From contig NZ_FNCA01000004.1 of the NCBI RefSeq assembly GCF_900100715.1, positions 248,001-312,000 on the forward strand: 64,000 bases of DNA. Reading direction: 5' to 3'. A program made the translations under genes and the position numbers. The stretch comes from Methanolobus vulcani (GTDB taxonomy: Archaea; Halobacteriota; Methanosarcinia; Methanosarcinales; Methanosarcinaceae). Within the stretch, counting starts at the first letter, position 1; each line of letters starts with the position of its first letter. This document shows, piece after piece, positions 40,750-52,452 of the stretch. The notes under the pieces were generated by a model, which saw nothing but the letters and a program-made list of their open reading frames with translations, was not told the DNA's origin and made no database searches.

Positions 40750-42129
40750 TTAGTTGCTCTTGTGAGCAGGGTGGTACTTCTCGATATACTTGTTATCGAT
40801 CCTGGTAAGCAGAGCTTCCGGAAGCTCAGAGAGAATGTCCCAGCCAACCTGAAGTGTGTCTTCAATTGACCTGTCTTCATCTCTTCCCTGACGTACGAAT
40901 CTGTCTTCGAACAGATCTGCGAATTCAAGAATCCTCTGGTCTCTCTCGGACAATGCCTCCTTACCTACGATAGCCACAAGACCTCTGAGGTCACGACCTT
41001 CTGCATAACCAGCATACATCTGGTCAGATACTGCTTTGTGGTCATCCCTAGTCTTTCCTTCACCTATACCTGAGTTCATCAGACGTGACAGTGATGGAAG
41101 AACATTGATTGGTGGGTAGATACCCTTCATATGAAGTTCCCTGGAAACTACGATCTGACCTTCTGTGATATAACCTGACAGATCGGGGATCGGGTGGGTA
41201 ATATCGTCACCTGGCATGGTAAGGATTGAGAACTGTGTTACAGATCCCTTTCTTCCCTTGATTACACCTGCACGCTCATAGAGTGATGCAAGGTCAGTGT
41301 ACATGTAACCTGGGTAACCACGTCTACCTGGTACTTCTTCACGGGCTGCGCCCATCTGACGGAGTGCTTCACAGTAGTTTGTGATGTCAGTAAGGATAAC
41401 AAGTACGTGCATATCGTGCTCGTATGCAAGATACTCTGCAGCTGTAAGAGCCATCCTTGGTGTGATGATACGTTCTACAGCAGGGTCGTCTGCAAGGTTA
41501 AGGAAAACCACAGCTCTCTCAAGAGCACCGGTCTTCTCGAAGTCTTCCATGAAGTACTGGGCTTCTTCGTTTGTGATACCCATTGCAGCGAATACTACTG
41601 CGAAATCTTCAGTGGAACCAGGAACCTTTGCCTGACGTGCGATCTGAAGAGCGATCTCGTTGTGTGGAAGACCTGATCCTGAGAAAATAGGAAGCTTCTG
41701 TCCACGAACAAGTGTGTTTGTACCGTCAATGGTAGAGATACCTGTCTGGATAAAGTCCTCTGGTGGCATCCTTGAATATGGGTTCATTGATGCACCGTTT
41801 ACATCGATCCTGTCTTCCGGAACAATACGTGGTCCACCATCGAGTGGTTCACCTGCACCGGACAGAATACGACCGAGCATGTCCTTTGATACAGGGAGTT
41901 TAATTGTCTCACCGGAGAACACTACACCAGACTCTTCGTTGAGTCCGCCTGTACCTTCGAATACCTGAACTGCTACAACATCAGCGGAGGTATCAAGAAC
42001 CTGACCTCTCTTTGTTGTGCCGTCTGGAAGGTTGATGTGAACAAGTTCACCGTAACCTACTGGTTCAGTCTTCTCGAGAAAAATCAGCGGTCCGGCGATT
42101 TCTGTGATCGTCTTATATTCCTTGGTCAT
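40750..42129 (-). CDS. ahaB: A-type ATP synthase subunit B
   Basis: A 459-residue non-catalytic nucleotide-binding subunit of the A3B3 hexamer. It begins [20 protein letters not shown]. It has a degenerate P-loop region ([22 protein letters not shown]) as expected for B subunits, and the [18 protein letters not shown] region. The open frame extends to 42183, but the ATG at 42129 has GGAGGCAACT upstream and lies 1 bp beyond the ahaA stop codon. Full length. Confidence 0.97.
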
Positions 42130-42130
42130 C

Positions 42131-43861
42131 TTAGTTGCCTCCAAGTGCTGCAAATTCCTTGTCCATCTTTTCCATGACAACATTCAGTGCATCATCGAAG
42201 TTCTCTTCGAATTTGACCTTGGCAAGATCGTCCTTAGACTCTACTGAGAGGATATCCTTCATTGGGATTCCTGCTTCCAGTGATGCCTGTGCCATGTCAC
42301 TGTACTTGGAGATTGCTTTGAGTAATTTATACTGTTTATCGAATGGACAGTATGTGTCAACAGGGTGGAATGCGTTCTGCTGAAGGAAGTATTCCCTGAG
42401 CATACGGCAGATCTCAAGAATCAACTGCTGGTCTTCCGGAAGTGCATCGGAACCAACAAGCTGTACGATCTCCTGAAGTTCGGATTCCTGCTGGAGAAGA
42501 TCCATTGCATTGTCCCTGAGTGGTACCCAGTCAGGTGCAACGTTCTCTGCAAACCAGTCAGAAAGACCCTGGGTGTACAGACTGTAACTTGTAAGCCAGT
42601 CAATGGATGGGAAGTGTCTCCTCTGTGCAAGTTTTGCATCCAGTGCCCAGAACACTTTTACGATACGGAGAGTGTTCTGTGTAACAGGCTCTGAGAAGTC
42701 ACCACCAGGTGGTGATACTGCACCAATAACTGTAATTGAACCTTCTTCTGCTGCAAGTGACTTTACTGCACCTGCACGCTCATAGAACTCTGAGAGTCTT
42801 GCAGAAAGGTATGCTGGATAACCTTCTTCACCAGGCATTTCTTCAAGCCTTGAGGAAATTTCTCTCATTGCTTCTGCCCATCTGGATGATGAGTCTGCCA
42901 TAAGTGATACATCGTATCCCATGTCACGGTAGTATTCTGCAATTGTGATACCTGTGTAAACAGATGCTTCACGAGCAGCTACAGGCATGTTGGATGTGTT
43001 TGCGATAAGAACTGTACGTTCCATGAGAGGACGACCGGTCTTTGGGTCCTGGAGTTCAGGGAACTCATTCAGTACATCAGCCATCTCATTTCCACGTTCT
43101 CCACATCCAATATATACTACAATGTCAGTGTCACTCCATTTTGCAAGCTGCTGCTGTGTAACAGTCTTTCCTGAACCGAATGGACCAGGGATAGCTGCTG
43201 TACCTCCCTTTGCTACAGGGAAGAGACCGTCAAGGATTCTCTGACCTGTAATAAGAGGTCTTTTTGGAATGAATTTCTTGTCTACTGGACGTGGCATTCT
43301 TACAGGCCACTTCTGCATCATGGAAATTTCGGTACCGTCTGTGAGTACACAGATCGTTTCGTCTACCTTGAACTTTCCTGACTTTATCTCTTCAACTGTA
43401 CCGGAAACTGTTGGTGGCACCATGATCTTGTGCTCAACGTTCTCTGTTTCCTGTACAACACCAATTGTCTGACCGCCCTTTACGGAATCGCCACTTGATA
43501 CAGTAGCCTTGAATTCCCATACTCTTTCACGGTCAAGACCGTTGGCAGTCACACCTCTGCTAATGAAGTCTCCCATCTTTTCCTGGAGAACTTTCAGAGG
43601 TCTCTGAATACCATCATAAATACTTTCTAATAAACCTGGACCGAGCTCTACAGAGAGGGACATTCCAGTGTTCACTACAGGCTCACCTGGCTTGATACCA
43701 GATGTATCCTCATATACCTGAACAGTGGCTTTGTCACCTTCAATTCTGATAACTTCGCCCATAAGACCTTCGTGACCAACGTGTACCACATCGTACATCT
43801 TTGGCTTTATACCCATAATAGTAACGACAGGTCCGGCCACACGATAAACTTCACCTTTCAT
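42131..43861 (-). CDS. ahaA: A-type ATP synthase catalytic subunit A
   Basis: A 576-residue catalytic subunit. The P-loop is [12 protein letters not shown] (around residue 230), the non-homologous insertion of A subunits is present upstream of it, and the catalytic glutamate region [12 protein letters not shown] and the [25 protein letters not shown] segment are clear. A GTG at 43867 is in frame, but the ATG at 43861 ([13 protein letters not shown]) overlaps the ahaF stop by ATGA and is preferred. No intein interrupts the P-loop region. Confidence 0.97.
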
Positions 43862-44157
43862 TTCCACAGATCTACACCTACCGATTGCTTTATTTTTTCC
43901 CTTAAATTCGAACTTTCACCACTACCACCGAGAGTCACAACAGTTGGCTCAACAGAATCGCTGATAGTGTATCTCAACATCTCCGGTAGTCCATTCAGAT
44001 CATCACCGTGCATTATCAGAATGCCGACTTCTCGATCCTCAAGTATTTTCTCTACAGTAGGCTCAAGTTCGCCATTATTAACTTCAAATATCTTTTTGAT
44101 ACCCGCAAGTCTGAAACCTGTTACAAACTCGCTATTTCCTACCACTGCTAATTCCAT
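43858..44157 (-). CDS. ahaF: A-type ATP synthase subunit F
   Basis: A 99-residue subunit of the central stalk. Its Rossmann-like fold starts [20 protein letters not shown], with the family segment [19 protein letters not shown] in the middle. It binds subunit D and is thought to regulate the motor. It overlaps ahaC (1 bp) and ahaA (4 bp). Confidence 0.94.
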
Positions 44158-45233
44158 CAGATCACCAACTGTTCCTTGATAACATCATCTTCGAGGTTGG
44201 CAGCTTTACCACGAATGATTATCCGCAAGTTGCTTATCTCGTTCTGTTTACTTAGCATGTAGTCCATGATTGGTACAATTGAGATCGGATAAACATGTGA
44301 GAAGCTTGCTGCAGATTTAAGCCTGTGCTGTTTCAGTCGGGTTTCGATATCAATTAATGAACTCATATCCGGTTTTACAACATCTGAGATGACATCCCAG
44401 TAAGGGTTGTTTTCCAACTCAGATACAAAGTCTGCAAAGGAAAGAGGCATCAATCTTTCTGTCTCTTTAAGTTTGCACTTCAATCCACCTTCGATCATCA
44501 AATCCATTGACTCTGAATCAGTAATTCCTGACTTCTTCAGACGGAAAAGAGTAACAAGATTTTTTATATCGATGCCCATTCTGGTAAATTCCTCAAACAG
44601 CTTGCGATCCTTTGATTTGGACCCGCCTACTGCGGCAAACAAACCTGTGTAGTACATTTTATCAAGCTTATTCTCGATCTCAGAAAGATTTGCACCATCG
44701 TAATTTTTTAATATCGGGTAATATTCCGTATTTGCAAGCTCAGAGATGACTTCCTCGTAAGTTGCTTTTGCTGCAAGGTCAGAAAGGCAAGTATAACTCA
44801 GTCTTCCTGCTGCAACAATTGCATCAAGAATTTCTTCTGTTGATGCATTACAATATTTACCACGCAGAATGGTTTTAATATTCCAGATATCATACTTCTT
44901 GAGTTTCTCACCGATAAGGAAGTTCACATCACCATCTGAAATATTAAGTAACTTAGTGAAGGTCTCTGCAAGATTCCTGTTAAGTGCATGCTCAATAAGG
45001 TCTACGCCTTCATACTGCCTTGCCAGTTCGTCGACATCCTCCTTATACTCAGATTCTTCTATGAACCTGGTAATTTCATCAATGCTCATGTTCATGAGCC
45101 TAGGATAGGTCTCCTTTGGCAGAAGCTTACTTTTCATTGCACGTACACGTGCTGTGGTATATGCATAATTTGCATGACCCTTTGAATGGGATTTTTTGGA
45201 ATTACCACGCTTAAATTTCTGCAACAGCTGCAT
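44157..45233 (-). CDS. ahaC: A-type ATP synthase subunit C
   Basis: A 358-residue helical subunit (V-type subunit d homologue) that sits on the proteolipid ring and receives the D/F stalk. The signatures [29 protein letters not shown] at the N-terminus and the C-terminal [19 protein letters not shown] are typical. Slightly longer N-terminus than some homologues, rich in lysine ([13 protein letters not shown]). Placed between ahaE (7-bp gap) and ahaF. Confidence 0.94.
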
Positions 45234-45240
45234 TTAGAAA

Positions 45241-45792
45241 TCACCCGAATAAGATATCAGATGTCTGTTTCAACAACCGCTCATTCACGCTTTTAAGGAT
45301 GACATCGTAGGTATAATCCAATCTGATAGTACCATCTTCGTTCTCGATAACAACACCACCGAGACAATCGATATTGCCGGCGTATTCGAGAGAAGATAAC
45401 TTCTTGACAATCTCCTCGGAAACAGCATTAGAATAGATCTTTGTGCCGTTTGCCTCGTTCTCACTGATGAGTTCTTTGAGGAGTGCTTCATTTTTCTCTG
45501 GAGAAAACTCAGAAATGGTTTCTACAGCCTGGACATATACTTTTTCGAGTATTTCCTTGCGTGCATTGAGCAATGTGCGCTTCACTTCGAGATTTGCACT
45601 GGATATTTCTTGCTGCCTTATCTTTTTAATATCATCTTCTGCCTTTGCAAGACGTTCACCCATAATCCTTTTAGCATTCTGTTTTGCTTCATCAAGAATC
45701 AGAGCTACTTCTGCATCTGCTTCAGAATCCAGTTTGGAAACTTCTGCCTGAGCAGCATCCATGATATCTTTAACAACAGTTTCTAGTCCCAT
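45241..45792 (-). CDS. ahaE: A-type ATP synthase subunit E
   Basis: A 183-residue peripheral-stalk subunit with an N-terminal helix forming a coiled coil (MGLETVVKDIMDAAQAEVSKL; then AEVALILDEAKQNAKRIMGERL) and a C-terminal globular domain that touches the A3B3 head. The open frame reaches a TTG at 45816, but the ATG at 45792 gives the family-typical N-terminus and follows AAGGTGTTGAGC. It pairs with AhaH to form the stator. Confidence 0.93.
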   Translation of the reverse strand: MGLETVVKDIMDAAQAEVSKLDSEADAEVALILDEAKQNAKRIMGERLAKAEDDIKKIRQQEISSANLEVKRTLLNARKEILEKVYVQAVETISEFSPEKNEALLKELISENEANGTKIYSNAVSEEIVKKLSSLEYAGNIDCLGGVVIENEDGTIRLDYTYDVILKSVNERLLKQTSDILFG

Positions 45793-45838
45793 GCTCAACA
45801 CCTTTATAAAATTCAAGAGCGAAAAATGCGCTCTTAAA

Positions 45839-48024
<2,186 letters not shown>

Positions 48025-48032
<8 letters not shown>

Positions 48033-48351
48033 GTATTGCCCTCTCGAATTCGTTAATGATTAATGTTACAGCCTCGTCTATTTTGGATGAAGCAGAGCTT
48101 GCGATAGTTTTAGCCTCGCTGCCCCCATTCTCGACGATTTTTGCTTTATCTGAAGTGATAGACTCTTCTGCAGATTTCATTGCACTTTGTGCAGATTTCT
48201 GTGCATCGACTTCGGCCTGTTTAATGATTTCCCTGGCCTCGGCACGTGCACTGGCGATACGGTCGTTTTTTCTTTTGATACCGTCGTCAACCATTTTGTG
48301 TGCATTGTCTTCTGCTTCTTTGATTTCCGACAAGATTTTTTCTTTGGCCAT
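48025..48351 (-). CDS. ahaH: A-type ATP synthase subunit H
   Basis: A 108-residue helical peripheral-stalk subunit ([20 protein letters not shown] followed by continuous heptads with many alanine, lysine and glutamate residues). An in-frame ATG at 48363 exists, but the ATG at 48351 has GAGGAT about 6 bp upstream. It is the first gene of the ten-gene operon ahaHIKECFABDG, the same order as in Methanosarcina mazei. Confidence 0.92.
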
Positions 48352-48389
48352 GCTAATCCTCATGTGATGAATTGCTTATTATCCCGAAT

Positions 48390-48569: not shown

Positions 48570-49760
48570 TCAACAAATAGATTTATCAAGTCTTACCGGA
48601 AGCTGTGTTCCTTCCGGTATAGTGCGGATATATTTGCTACGGAATTCAGGGTTGCGCATCATACAGTATTCCGCAGAGCAATTATATGCTTCATGCTTGC
48701 CCATTCTTTCCCATATTGCAGCAAGATCCTCCTCACGAATATTGCCGAATGAAAGAGGAGTATAAGCACAGGGTAAAACATCCCCCCCTGCTGTTGTATG
48801 CATCCATCTCCTACCTGCAAAACAACCAAACTCATCAGGACCCATAAAATTCGGGAATGAAGTTACCCTTGGACCATCCTCTTTTTTGTTCATTGATTTC
48901 TGGAACTTCCCAAGCCTATCAACATCTTTGGAAGTAATTACCTCATCCTCATGATCCAGCCAGCGTCCAACAGCTATGATCTCATAAATTGATAATTCCT
49001 GCATACCCATATCTGCTGCAAAATTGTAGAAACCATCAAGATCATCTATATTATGAGGTGAAACAACCACAAAAAGATCCGCAAGAACCCCAGCATTGAC
49101 AAAGTGCTTGATACCATTGACAGTATTCTGGAAAGCTCCTTCACGATTTCTTACACGATCATGTTCAGCCTCATCAGGACTATCCAGACTTAAGTGTGCA
49201 GCAAAAAGACCTGCTGCTTTTAGATCCATAGCCCTTTGTTCAGTCAAACTGAAACCTGATGTGAAACATGAAACTATAGCACGGGACTTGTCCACCTTGG
49301 CGATCATTTGCTCAAGGTCTTTCCTGAGCAAAGTTTCCCCACCATCAAAAGCAATATAATATGAACCTAGATCAATTGACTGGCCAATAGCACTATTGAT
49401 TTCATCAGCAGTCAGAATTGGATCTGCAACAGTACCAGCCGCCCCACAATGTATACAATCATAAGGACAGTGCGTTGTAATCCCTATTGAAAATTGATCA
49501 GGTACTCTCTTCTTTAATATAGAGGCCACCTGGGCACTGATCATCCTATTGAATATATCGCCCGGCATTGGCGGAGCCCATGTAGAGAATATTATGTTAT
49601 CCTCATCTGAATATATGGGTTTCTCTTCAAGAAATATCTTGTTGATACGTTTTATAATCGGTTTTGCAACAGCAGACAGGGGACCCTCTGTATCAAGGAC
49701 CACTCGTCCGTTTTCTGTGCTGGCATTTACTTTAATTACTGATTTATCATAAACCCTCAT
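48570..49760 (-). CDS. Radical SAM protein of unknown substrate
   Basis: A 396-residue radical SAM enzyme. An N-terminal region of about 100 residues precedes the cluster motif CPYDCIHC (C-x3-C-x2-C, about residue 103). A glycine-rich DGGETLLRKDLEQM motif follows. The C-terminal part has further cysteines (FGCFAGRRWMHTTAGGDVLPCAY; NCSAEYCMMRN) suggestive of a SPASM-like auxiliary cluster domain. The ATG at 49760 follows CAGGTGAC. It is the last gene of a minus-strand operon after ccmD, ccmE and a polyprenyl synthase. The N-terminus does not resemble AhbC. The substrate is unknown; a prenylated or heme-related compound is suggested by context only. Confidence 0.85.
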   Translation of the reverse strand: MRVYDKSVIKVNASTENGRVVLDTEGPLSAVAKPIIKRINKIFLEEKPIYSDEDNIIFSTWAPPMPGDIFNRMISAQVASILKKRVPDQFSIGITTHCPYDCIHCGAAGTVADPILTADEINSAIGQSIDLGSYYIAFDGGETLLRKDLEQMIAKVDKSRAIVSCFTSGFSLTEQRAMDLKAAGLFAAHLSLDSPDEAEHDRVRNREGAFQNTVNGIKHFVNAGVLADLFVVVSPHNIDDLDGFYNFAADMGMQELSIYEIIAVGRWLDHEDEVITSKDVDRLGKFQKSMNKKEDGPRVTSFPNFMGPDEFGCFAGRRWMHTTAGGDVLPCAYTPLSFGNIREEDLAAIWERMGKHEAYNCSAEYCMMRNPEFRSKYIRTIPEGTQLPVRLDKSIC

Positions 49761-49785
49761 GAAGTCACCTGACAATTGAATAAAA

Positions 49786-50655
49786 TTAAAGGATATCAGC
49801 AGGAAGCATATCCACAGTAATAAGGTCAGTTATTAATTCCAGTTTATCCCTTGAATCAGAAGACGGGAACGAAGCAAGGATATCTTTTGCATTTTTAACG
49901 CAGATACAAACCTGTTCCACAGTTTTCTCCACAGTTTTATCATGATCCATAACCCTTCTGTAGATAAGAGGTAATGTAACAGATTCATAAGTAGAACTTT
50001 TATCTTCAAGCTCATTAAGATACTCAAGAAGATCATCAACTATCTGATATGCATTGCCCACATTTTCACCAAAGGACCTTAATTTCCTGGCAGTTTCAGA
50101 ATCAGCACCTGCAACATATGCACCTATTGCGGCACTTGCAGCAAAAAGAGATCCTGTCTTCTTACTGATACACTCAAAGTAGTTCTTTTCCTTGAATTCA
50201 TCATCAACACTTGAAATATCGATGGTTTCACCTTCAGCCATATACATTCCTGCCCGGCCGAATTCATTTACTGCATCATTACCATATCCGGAAATAAGAG
50301 ATATTGCCTTGGAAATCAGGAAATCACCACAAAGAATAGCTGCCGGGATTCCATATTTTTTGTGTGCTGACTCGACACCACGACGTACAAGACCTCCATC
50401 AAGTACATCATCATGGATAAGAGATGCGGAATGAATAAATTCAATTGCAAGTGCTGCCTTTACGCCTTCAGTTGAATTTCCTCCACACATCTCAGTACAT
50501 AATATAAGCATAACAGGACGGATATTCTTTCCACCGGAACTGCATATGTGCAGAAGCATCTTTTTCATCTGGGAACTATCATCCATAGAATGGACCATAT
50601 CATCCTTGGCCATCTTGATCAACTGATATTCATCCAGATCATCTATTTGTATCAT
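49786..50655 (-). CDS. Polyprenyl diphosphate synthase
   Basis: A 289-residue trans-isoprenyl diphosphate synthase. The first aspartate-rich motif is HDDVLDGGLVRRG (DDxxD), preceded by the chain-length region AIEFIHSASLI with small and aliphatic residues before the motif, which favours a long product. The second motif is modified to YQIVDDLLEY. GGKNIRPVM binds the isopentenyl substrate. It follows ccmE by 12 bp. Possible products are the side chain of methanophenazine or another long prenyl group; length cannot be fixed by reading alone. Confidence 0.9.
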   Translation of the reverse strand: MIQIDDLDEYQLIKMAKDDMVHSMDDSSQMKKMLLHICSSGGKNIRPVMLILCTEMCGGNSTEGVKAALAIEFIHSASLIHDDVLDGGLVRRGVESAHKKYGIPAAILCGDFLISKAISLISGYGNDAVNEFGRAGMYMAEGETIDISSVDDEFKEKNYFECISKKTGSLFAASAAIGAYVAGADSETARKLRSFGENVGNAYQIVDDLLEYLNELEDKSSTYESVTLPLIYRRVMDHDKTVEKTVEQVCICVKNAKDILASFPSSDSRDKLELITDLITVDMLPADIL

Positions 50656-50667
50656 AACCACGCCTGC

Positions 50668-51048
50668 TCATTCTGAGTATTTAGAAGGACAACTCATAAC
50701 TATCTGACTTGCTTCAACCATGGTTGGAGAAAGCATTTTTCCGCTTATACTAACACTTTGCCCCTCTGCAAGGTTGGCCGGAAGAGAACCGGTATATTCC
50801 ACATTAATCTCATAAGAAGGTTCTTCCAGGTCCTGAAGTGCAAAAGAAGTTCCGTCTGTAGTAATATCAAGAGTTCCATTCTTGATCATGCCCATTGTGT
50901 TGACATCATGCCCTACAAACTCCTCTGAGTTCTGAGATATATCAGATATCATATAATATCCCTGTGAAAGGTCAACATTCCAGAGACCTACAAAACCAAC
51001 AACAGCGATGAAAACAACTGCAACTATCGTTTTTTGTGTTCTATCCAT
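50668..51048 (-). CDS. ccmE: Cytochrome c maturation protein CcmE, CxxxY variant
   Basis: A 126-residue heme chaperone. One N-terminal transmembrane anchor (about 8-25) is followed by an OB-fold domain (GMIKNGTLDITTDGTSFAL to GKMLSPTMVEASQIVMS). In bacterial CcmE the heme-binding motif is HxxxY; here the C-terminus has CPSKY (Cys120, Tyr124), the CxxxY form known from archaea and some bacteria. The ATG at 51048 follows GAGGTGCTTCC. It carries heme outside the membrane for attachment to CxxCH proteins such as the nine-heme cytochrome in this window. Confidence 0.88.
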   Translation of the reverse strand: MDRTQKTIVAVVFIAVVGFVGLWNVDLSQGYYMISDISQNSEEFVGHDVNTMGMIKNGTLDITTDGTSFALQDLEEPSYEINVEYTGSLPANLAEGQSVSISGKMLSPTMVEASQIVMSCPSKYSE

Positions 51049-51081
51049 AGGAAGCACCTCTACAATGATCGTTTATCAGGA

Positions 51082-51198
51082 TCACTTTTCTATCCTGTTA
51101 CATTGGCGCAGCAGTTTTCTACGGGAACTCACAATGTATGCAACATATACCACCAATGTAATCCACGTAATTGTAAATGCAATCTCTAACGCGCCTAT
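51082..51198 (-). CDS. ccmD: CcmD-like membrane microprotein with apparent ATA start codon
   Basis: This frame encodes about 38 residues: GALEIAFTITWITLVVYVAY as a single helix, then a basic tail SSRRKLLRQCNR, the size and layout of CcmD. A strong ribosome binding site, GAGGTGAT, lies 5 bp before ATA, which occupies the place where ATG would be expected; no ATG, GTG or TTG exists between the upstream in-frame stop and this point. It ends 33 bp before ccmE. It is either a rare non-canonical start or a recently damaged gene. Confidence 0.6.
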   Translation of the reverse strand: MGALEIAFTITWITLVVYVAYIVSSRRKLLRQCNRIEK

Positions 51199-51405: not shown

Positions 51406-52452
51406 ATGGTAAAACCTCCAAGACTCATCGCATGGGAAACAACAGCAGGATGTAACCTTTCATGTAAACACTGCAGAGGTTCATCTACTGAGAAAAAACC
51501 AGAGGGCGAACTTACAACTGAACAAGCACTCCATTTCGTAGATGAAATTAAAGAAATGGGAAATCCAATACTCATACTTAGTGGTGGAGAGCCACTGGTA
51601 AGGGATGACATATTCGAGATTGCAAAATATGCCACGGAAAAAGGTCTGCGCGTTGCTATGGCAACAAACGGAACTTTAGTCACACCTGAAATGGCAGACA
51701 AAATAAAAAACGTGGGCATTCAGAGAGTAAGCATCAGTCTTGATGGTTCTAGTCCTCAGACACATGATGACTTCCGTTGCATGCCAGGAGCATTTGAAGG
51801 TGCCTTGAATGGAATAGAGAATCTAAAAGATGCAGGGATAGGTTTCCAGATAAATCCTACAATCACAAAACGCACCATAGATGAAATTCCTGCCATACTT
51901 GAGATGGCAAAGGAACTGGGCGCAGATGCACTTCATATTTTCCTTCTCGTACCAACAGGAAGAGGCAAGGAACTTGAAAACGATGAGATCCCTCCTGTGG
52001 AATACGAAAGGATACTCAATTGGTTCTATGACAGGCAGAAAGATGCAGGCATACAGCTCAAAGCAACCTGTGCACCCCATTATTTCAGGATAATGCGCCA
52101 GCGTGCGGAAAAAGAAGGTATTGAGATAAGTGTCAAAACCCACGGTTACGAAGCAATGACCAAAGGATGTCTCGGAGGAACAGGGTTTTGTTTTGTATCA
52201 AGCACAGGAGACGTATATCCTTGCGGATATCTTCCAGCACTTGCAGGAAACATAAAAGAGCAGAGTTTCAAGGATATCTGGGAGAACTCGAAGGTATTCA
52301 ATGATCTGCGTGATGTCTCCAAACTAAAGGGAAAATGTGGAATATGTGAATATAATACAGTATGCGGAGGCTGCCGTGCACGTGCATATGCTGCCACAGG
52401 AGACTATCTTGAGGAAGAGCCATACTGTATATATGTACCTAAAAAACAGTGA
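51406..52452 (+). CDS. ahbD: Heme b synthase AhbD (radical SAM, Fe-coproporphyrin III decarboxylase)
   Basis: A 348-residue radical SAM enzyme that decarboxylates two propionates of Fe-coproporphyrin III to give heme in the siroheme-dependent pathway. The cluster motif is CNLSCKHC (residues 16-23). The auxiliary-cluster SPASM domain at the C-terminus is CGICEYNTVCGGCRARA with YC at the end. Adjacent ahbA and ahbB support the AhbD rather than AhbC assignment, as in Methanosarcina barkeri. No ribosome binding site is obvious, in line with a very short leader. Confidence 0.88.
   Translation: MVKPPRLIAWETTAGCNLSCKHCRGSSTEKKPEGELTTEQALHFVDEIKEMGNPILILSGGEPLVRDDIFEIAKYATEKGLRVAMATNGTLVTPEMADKIKNVGIQRVSISLDGSSPQTHDDFRCMPGAFEGALNGIENLKDAGIGFQINPTITKRTIDEIPAILEMAKELGADALHIFLLVPTGRGKELENDEIPPVEYERILNWFYDRQKDAGIQLKATCAPHYFRIMRQRAEKEGIEISVKTHGYEAMTKGCLGGTGFCFVSSTGDVYPCGYLPALAGNIKEQSFKDIWENSKVFNDLRDVSKLKGKCGICEYNTVCGGCRARAYAATGDYLEEEPYCIYVPKKQ

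Follow-up and report, generated by a model that had tools for sequence, protein, structure and literature searches.

The locus

The window analysed here is a 64,000-nucleotide stretch of the Methanolobus vulcani genome (G000; the stretch lies on contig G000:C14). On its minus strand, two genes of cytochrome c maturation are followed by a prenyl synthase gene and a radical SAM gene.

51406–52452, plus strand: ahbD, heme b synthase (TIGR04545, 601.7 bits, cut-off 500); context only
51082–51198, minus strand: ccmD-like ORF of 38 codons with an ATA start, one hydrophobic segment and a basic tail (TIGR04391)
50668–51048, minus strand: ccmE, heme chaperone, ATG start with an alternative GTG at 51057 (PF03100, CPSKY)
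49786–50655, minus strand: GFPS-type prenyl synthase, i.e. all-E geranylfarnesyl (C25) diphosphate synthase (PF00348, NF040627, DDVLD)
48570–49760, minus strand: rSAM1, radical SAM/SPASM-type enzyme of 396 aa (PF04055, PF13186)
48025–48363, minus strand: ahaH, which opens the A1AO ATP synthase operon (ahaH–ahaI order); context only

A first-pass annotation had described four same-strand genes spaced 12–33 bp apart and divergent from the heme genes. The coordinates agree with this, the gaps being 33 bp between ccmD and ccmE, 12 bp between ccmE and GFPS, and 25 bp between GFPS and rSAM1. The divergent ahbD lies 207 bp from the ccmD-like ORF, and 206 bp separate rSAM1 from the downstream ahaH, which has the same orientation. 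The A1AO ATP synthase operon occupies window positions 40750–48363, directly downstream of the four-gene unit, and is conserved in family f1. An Rfam scan of the operon region gave no matches.

The same annotation knew of no description of the unit as a pathway. This holds in so far as no paper in the literature searched, outside whose scope lay bioRxiv and most subscription papers, names the radical SAM genes or their partners. Parts of the neighbourhood, however, had been published: ccmE and GFPS form one putative operon in M. acetivorans (PMC9084895), and in Mhp. mahii, heme genes and ATP synthase genes occur close to GFPS (PMC3017947).

The CcmD-like protein and CcmE

The ccmD-like ORF scores 29.0 bits against TIGR04391, the alternative CcmD family (cut-off 24), and stays below the cut-offs of the classical CcmD models PF04995 and TIGR03141. 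By the TIGR04391 cut-off, the single membrane segment and the ccm neighbour, it belongs to the CcmD family. It has no ATG, GTG or TTG start. Instead, it begins with an ATA codon that is preceded by a GAGGTGA Shine–Dalgarno sequence, aligns with the ATG of relatives, and is found in all 19 Methanolobus ccmD loci compared (some of which are the same genome twice). In the same loci, with the same duplication, the frame contains no stops and has a pN/pS of 0.41, and frame +1 is interrupted by stops in 19 of 19; the ORF is therefore coding. The codon at this position (51196–51198 of the window) is apparently ATT in other Methanolobus members, and a conserved non-canonical start of this kind is one that gene callers would miss.

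CcmE is assigned by PF03100 (55.2 bits, cut-off 24.6) and by its C-terminal CPSKY, which corresponds to the archaeal CxxxY heme-binding motif. Among the 25 Methanosarcina-type genomes (g6 and g7), a CcmD-like protein above the cut-off occurs in 12 of the 13 with CcmE and in none of the 12 without it (Fisher p 2.7e-6, uncorrected for kinship). For TIGR04391 in the 150 genomes surveyed in the order, the corresponding counts are 99/127 and 0/23. Thus, ccmD and ccmE are lost together. Genome G133, which we take to be M. acetivorans C2A, has a 34-residue CcmD-family ORF 25 bp upstream of ccmE.

The predicted CcmD-family gene beside ccmE contradicts, and would correct, the published view that ccmD is universally absent from archaea (PMC9084895). 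Earlier records of CcmD-like genes in some archaea may exist, given that Halobacteria and Nitrososphaeria are among the classes in the CcmC/CcmD alignments of PMC12077264. In M. barkeri, CcmABCEF without CcmD was enough to mature one cytochrome (PMC9084895). CcmD is therefore not strictly essential there, and the predicted protein would have no more than an accessory or conditional role. Together, ccmD–ccmE would serve cytochrome c maturation by loading CcmE with heme.

The prenyl synthase and rSAM1

The polyprenyl synthase matches PF00348 with 182.5 bits and carries the DDVLD motif. Its best NCBIfam match by far is NF040627, geranylfarnesyl diphosphate synthase, at 331 bits, which is below the equivalog cut-off of 600. 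In G133, synteny places GFPS next to ccmE (L176; C1:5066461, 49% identity), and another gene at C1:710773 (37% identity) resembles a C20 synthase and fits the expected position of MA0606. The latter is given as the M. acetivorans GFPS homologue in PMC8546582.

The membership of rSAM1 in the radical SAM superfamily rests on PF04055 (71.2 bits, cut-off 29.5), and the motif C98xxxC102xxC105 is invariant in an alignment of 16 orthologues. A SPASM match follows (PF13186, 33.7 bits, cut-off 21.5). Three C-terminal cysteines (313, 331 and 366) are invariant in the 16 orthologues, compared with about seven for two auxiliary clusters, and the protein likely has one auxiliary cluster. Against the NCBIfam equivalogs of AhbC, AhbD and NirJ, rSAM1 reaches only 50–115 bits, far from the cut-offs of 500–650, and no functional NCBIfam model is matched above its cut-off by any of the radical SAM proteins of the set described below. 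The AlphaFold model of rSAM1 (pLDDT 81.6, pTM 0.86) has, according to Foldseek, the radical SAM/SPASM fold, with SkfB, PqqE and SuiB as the nearest PDB entries. This result confirms the fold only and does not reveal the substrate.

The radical SAM family and its partner genes

Of 393 genomes of the phylum, 95 contain matches (E ≤ 1e-50) to a profile built from the 16 rSAM1 orthologues, and nearly all of these have three copies. In 24 genomes searched at a laxer threshold, no family member scores below 228 bits and no further match above 152 bits. A tree, in which bootstrap values are not fully settled and some branches are long, recovers supported clades for rSAM1, rSAM2 and rSAM3, the last with a deep-lineage copy as its sister, and places rSAM4 apart. 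A scan of named genomes returned Methanosarcinales relatives only, with M. vulcani, M. bombayensis and M. profundi among the close ones, plus one bacterial match with 23% identity.

Single family members occur in G223 (f20) and G280 (f30). That of G223 (L127:7707–8837) is rSAM2-like with 57% identity, groups with f3, and would be the product of transfer or contamination. The divergent rSAM1-family member of G280 adjoins a gene for a B12-binding radical SAM protein with BchE/HpnJ-like scores (L128:8913–10295).

Elsewhere in the M. vulcani genome, rSAM2 lies directly after the genes of a UbiA prenyltransferase and of an FAD-dependent protein of the geranylgeranyl reductase family (GGR).

G000:C10:339282–340217: UbiA prenyltransferase
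G000:C10:336968–338077: rSAM2, directly after UbiA and GGR

The UbiA–GGR–rSAM2 operon is conserved in the f1 loci inspected (L096–L100, L175) and in G094 (L180); in f2, UbiA is apart from rSAM2 and the order is not kept. Nineteen Methanosarcinia genomes with the radical SAM set were tested for the rSAM2-linked UbiA, which scores 388–613 bits in every one of them and at most 67 bits elsewhere. These genomes also contain a second UbiA with a weaker match, presumably the membrane-lipid enzyme. The fourth radical SAM protein, rSAM4, reaches 324–616 bits wherever a tested genome has the full set, G094 (67% complete) being the one exception, and stays below 195 bits elsewhere. None of the inspected neighbours of rSAM3 and rSAM4 in Methanosarcinia was informative.

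Compact clusters of UbiA, GGR-like, rSAM4 and other radical SAM genes lie at L112–L119 (f11, f15, f17, f21). In f11, f17 and f21, UbiA, GGR, rSAM4, the three radical SAM paralogues and an NMT1/THI5-like protein share one cluster; in f15, the same genes are split over two. The NMT1/THI5-like protein was discarded as a universal partner: its orthologue occurs only in these four families and was not found in Methanosarcinia. McrA was found in none of the 11 genomes of the class that comprises f11, f17 and f21. The cluster, which in this McrA-less class is conserved at about 35% identity, suggests a methanophenazine-like carrier outside the methanogens.

Distribution and respiratory carrier

The radical SAM set is present in f1, f2, f3 and G094 within the order, in f6 within the class, and in f11, f15, f17 and f21 elsewhere in the phylum. 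Apart from the one McrA-less uncultured class, nearly all genomes in which its three paralogues co-occur belong to lineages with known or inferred methanophenazine, it being understood that few of these lineages have had the compound measured and that most genomes are identified by kinship only. We take G220 to be Methanothrix thermoacetophila and G009 to be Mhp. mahii; f15 probably represents Methanonatronarchaeia, f9 Archaeoglobaceae, f5 g16 Methanoperedens, and f8, f14 and f16 cytochrome-free methanogens. At E ≤ 1e-50, no member of the family was found in the sampled, presumably cytochrome-free methanogens of the phylum, so that the wide occurrence in such organisms which the first-pass annotation had named as counting against its idea is not observed. 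The association with methanophenazine that it had suspected was borne out by the survey, where the family tracks methanophenazine lineages. Published studies infer methanophenazine in ANME-2a/b/c and menaquinone in ANME-1 (PMC9012536), menaquinone also in Methanoperedens (PMC5244752), and methanophenazine also in Methanothrix and Methanonatronarchaeum (PMC12918732, PMC7374477).

Strong matches to MqnE of the futalosine pathway (E below about 1e-110, called by a score gap) occur in f4, f5 g16 and g20, f9, f10, f20 and f34. TIGR03700 was rejected as a yes/no marker of MqnE: at 1e-40 it has relatives in 384 of 393 genomes, and many archaeal MqnE candidates fall below its cut-off. The genomes with strong MqnE lack the radical SAM set, and both coincide only in G223 with its single rSAM2-like gene. 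G094 (L094, L180) belongs to f5, the family of the futalosine-bearing g16, yet has rSAM1–3, GFPS, UbiA and GGR. Its gene content suggests a switch of carrier within f5.

Conservation of the gene order

The GFPS–rSAM1 pair is present in every f1 locus inspected. In most of those that retain ccmE, ccmD–ccmE lies upstream of GFPS, and the divergent ahbD is found in the f1 members outside g6 and g7 that retain ccmE. Downstream, ahaH–ahaI follows rSAM1 wherever the contig extends that far (L106 ends too early). In f2, ccmE and rSAM1 are still adjacent and GFPS is missing; in f3, ccmD–ccmE–GFPS is intact and rSAM1 is located elsewhere (G043:C103, G067:C9). The f6 genomes, which belong to another order, and G094 maintain the GFPS–rSAM1 pair. 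Pairs of the unit thus persist in different combinations among families. The gene order is not unique to this genome, which the first-pass annotation would have counted against its idea, and since GFPS–rSAM1 recurs in all f1 loci inspected, it is not due to chance. All these genome comparisons sample one phylum, in which relatedness among genomes inflates simple statistics.

A candidate pathway for methanophenazine

Methanophenazine, which serves as the analogue of a quinone in cytochrome-containing methanogens and presumably in several methane-oxidising archaea, is a 2-hydroxyphenazine carrying a C25 2,3-dihydroprenyl ether. The first isoprene unit of its chain is saturated. The C25 chain is ether-linked to the phenazine (PMC3017947), and papers of 2018 and 2021 call the biosynthesis not deciphered (PMC6315138, PMC8546582). 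The literature covered by our search contains no methanophenazine pathway with a radical SAM or UbiA enzyme.

The GFPS–rSAM1 module, UbiA, GGR and rSAM2–4 are, in our judgement, fairly probably the genes of methanophenazine synthesis. GFPS would make the C25 diphosphate, and the UbiA-type prenyltransferase would couple the chain to the head group as an ether. The FAD-dependent geranylgeranyl reductase-like enzyme would saturate the first isoprene unit. In the least certain step, rSAM1, rSAM2, rSAM3 and rSAM4 would build the phenazine head from aromatic precursors or modify it. We infer the product, each of these chemical steps and the division of labour among the radical SAM enzymes from gene presence, order, co-distribution and family membership.

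The fit of the gene set to the known methanophenazine structure counts for this assignment. GFPS by itself is not specific, since homologues (~40%) occur in menaquinone lineages and f2 has none; it was rejected as a methanophenazine marker. As the McrA-less class carries its cluster at about 35% identity, the product there may be a relative of methanophenazine. More speculatively, and with less than even confidence, the archaeal phenazine head would arise through radical SAM chemistry that has no relation to that of the bacterial phz pathway, with three paralogous SPASM-type enzymes and a fourth radical SAM enzyme, and the McrA-less class would make a methanophenazine-like carrier for non-methanogenic respiration.

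Alternative explanations

In f1, rSAM1 shares an operon with ccmE, and in f2 it adjoins ccmE; its best NCBIfam match, albeit weak, is AhbD with 115 bits. It might accordingly be a cytochrome c or heme maturation enzyme that modifies heme or CcmE. Yet rSAM1 is retained in 25 of 25 Methanosarcina-type genomes, including all 12 that lack CcmE, where it keeps its place after GFPS in L077, L078, L080 and L103–L105. Conversely, the f5 g16 genomes, which have CcmE and TIGR04391 matches, contain no rSAM1 orthologue (the best matches, where there are any, lie at 1e-20 to 1e-30); two of these genomes are part of the phylum sample, and both match MqnE strongly. Its scores also lie far below the AhbC, AhbD and NirJ cut-offs. 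A gene that persists where CcmE and CcmD have been lost, and that a futalosine lineage rich in CcmE lacks, is therefore not one of cytochrome c or heme maturation; this pattern of presence and absence led us to reject such a role, which we regard as very improbable. Nor does it support the reading of the first-pass annotation, in which heme, cytochrome c and prenyl lipid would belong to a single pathway. The operon is composed of two functional modules, ccmD–ccmE and GFPS–rSAM1, probably on one transcript. The persistence of GFPS–rSAM1 in the CcmE-less Methanosarcina genomes and in f6 counts for methanophenazine synthesis.

Scarcely credible is the notion that the gene order is a mere accident of shared ancestry in Methanosarcinaceae and has no functional meaning. 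The separation of the operon parts elsewhere (ccmE–rSAM1 in f2, ccmE–GFPS in f3, GFPS–rSAM1 in f6) could be cited in its favour, but the phylum-wide co-distribution and the rSAM2–UbiA–GGR linkage are independent of this operon, and the rSAM1 profile across the phylum mostly refutes it. The radical SAM set could also make another prenylated lipid or cofactor that accompanies methanophenazine respiration, or mature a protein of the chain such as HdrE or VhtC. Its presence in the McrA-less class would suit such a product, as would the frequent modification of peptides by SPASM enzymes, to which the nearest solved structures (SkfB, PqqE, SuiB) belong. However, the same clusters encode UbiA and a prenyl reductase-like enzyme, which speaks for a small molecule with a prenyl chain as the product. 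These are exactly the activities that methanophenazine requires, which makes this explanation unlikely.

With GFPS, UbiA, the reductase and four radical SAM enzymes as candidates, the question of methanophenazine synthesis comes within reach of genetics in the tractable Methanosarcina. If the assignment is true, the set would offer a genomic marker that tells methanophenazine users from menaquinone users, and would suggest phenazine chemistry by a new enzyme type.

Comparison with known systems

The archaeal Ccm system of M. acetivorans resembles the first module in its CcmE with CxxxY and in the putative operon of ccmE and GFPS; it differs in that the published account denies an archaeal ccmD, whereas G133 has the short ORF ahead of ccmE (PMC9084895). 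The M. mazei GFPS (MM_0789) has been assigned to synthesis of the methanophenazine side chain (PMC3017947). The synthase of the operon resembles it in having NF040627 as its best family match, and differs in falling short of the cut-off of that model.

Like the SPASM enzymes SkfB, PqqE, SuiB, AhbC/AhbD and NirJ, rSAM1 combines a CxxxCxxC core with a C-terminal domain that matches the SPASM model, and SkfB and PqqE are its nearest PDB entries by sequence and fold. Unlike them, it has three invariant C-terminal cysteines, is only 16–19% identical to its best structural matches, and scores below the functional cut-offs.

The futalosine (mqn) pathway of menaquinone synthesis likewise assembles a redox carrier with a prenyl chain under anaerobic conditions, using the radical SAM enzymes MqnE and MqnC and a UbiA prenyltransferase, and the NMT1/THI5-like protein of the deep lineages, with its periplasmic-binding-protein fold, recalls MqnA/MqnD. 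However, the radical SAM set and strong MqnE are found in separate genomes, apart from the lone gene of G223, and no orthologue of the NMT1-like gene was found in Methanosarcinia. The bacterial phz pathway also makes a phenazine head group, but the candidate set described here is based on radical SAM enzymes; a PhzF-domain gene is present in only some methanophenazine organisms, where its role is unclear (PMC5244752).
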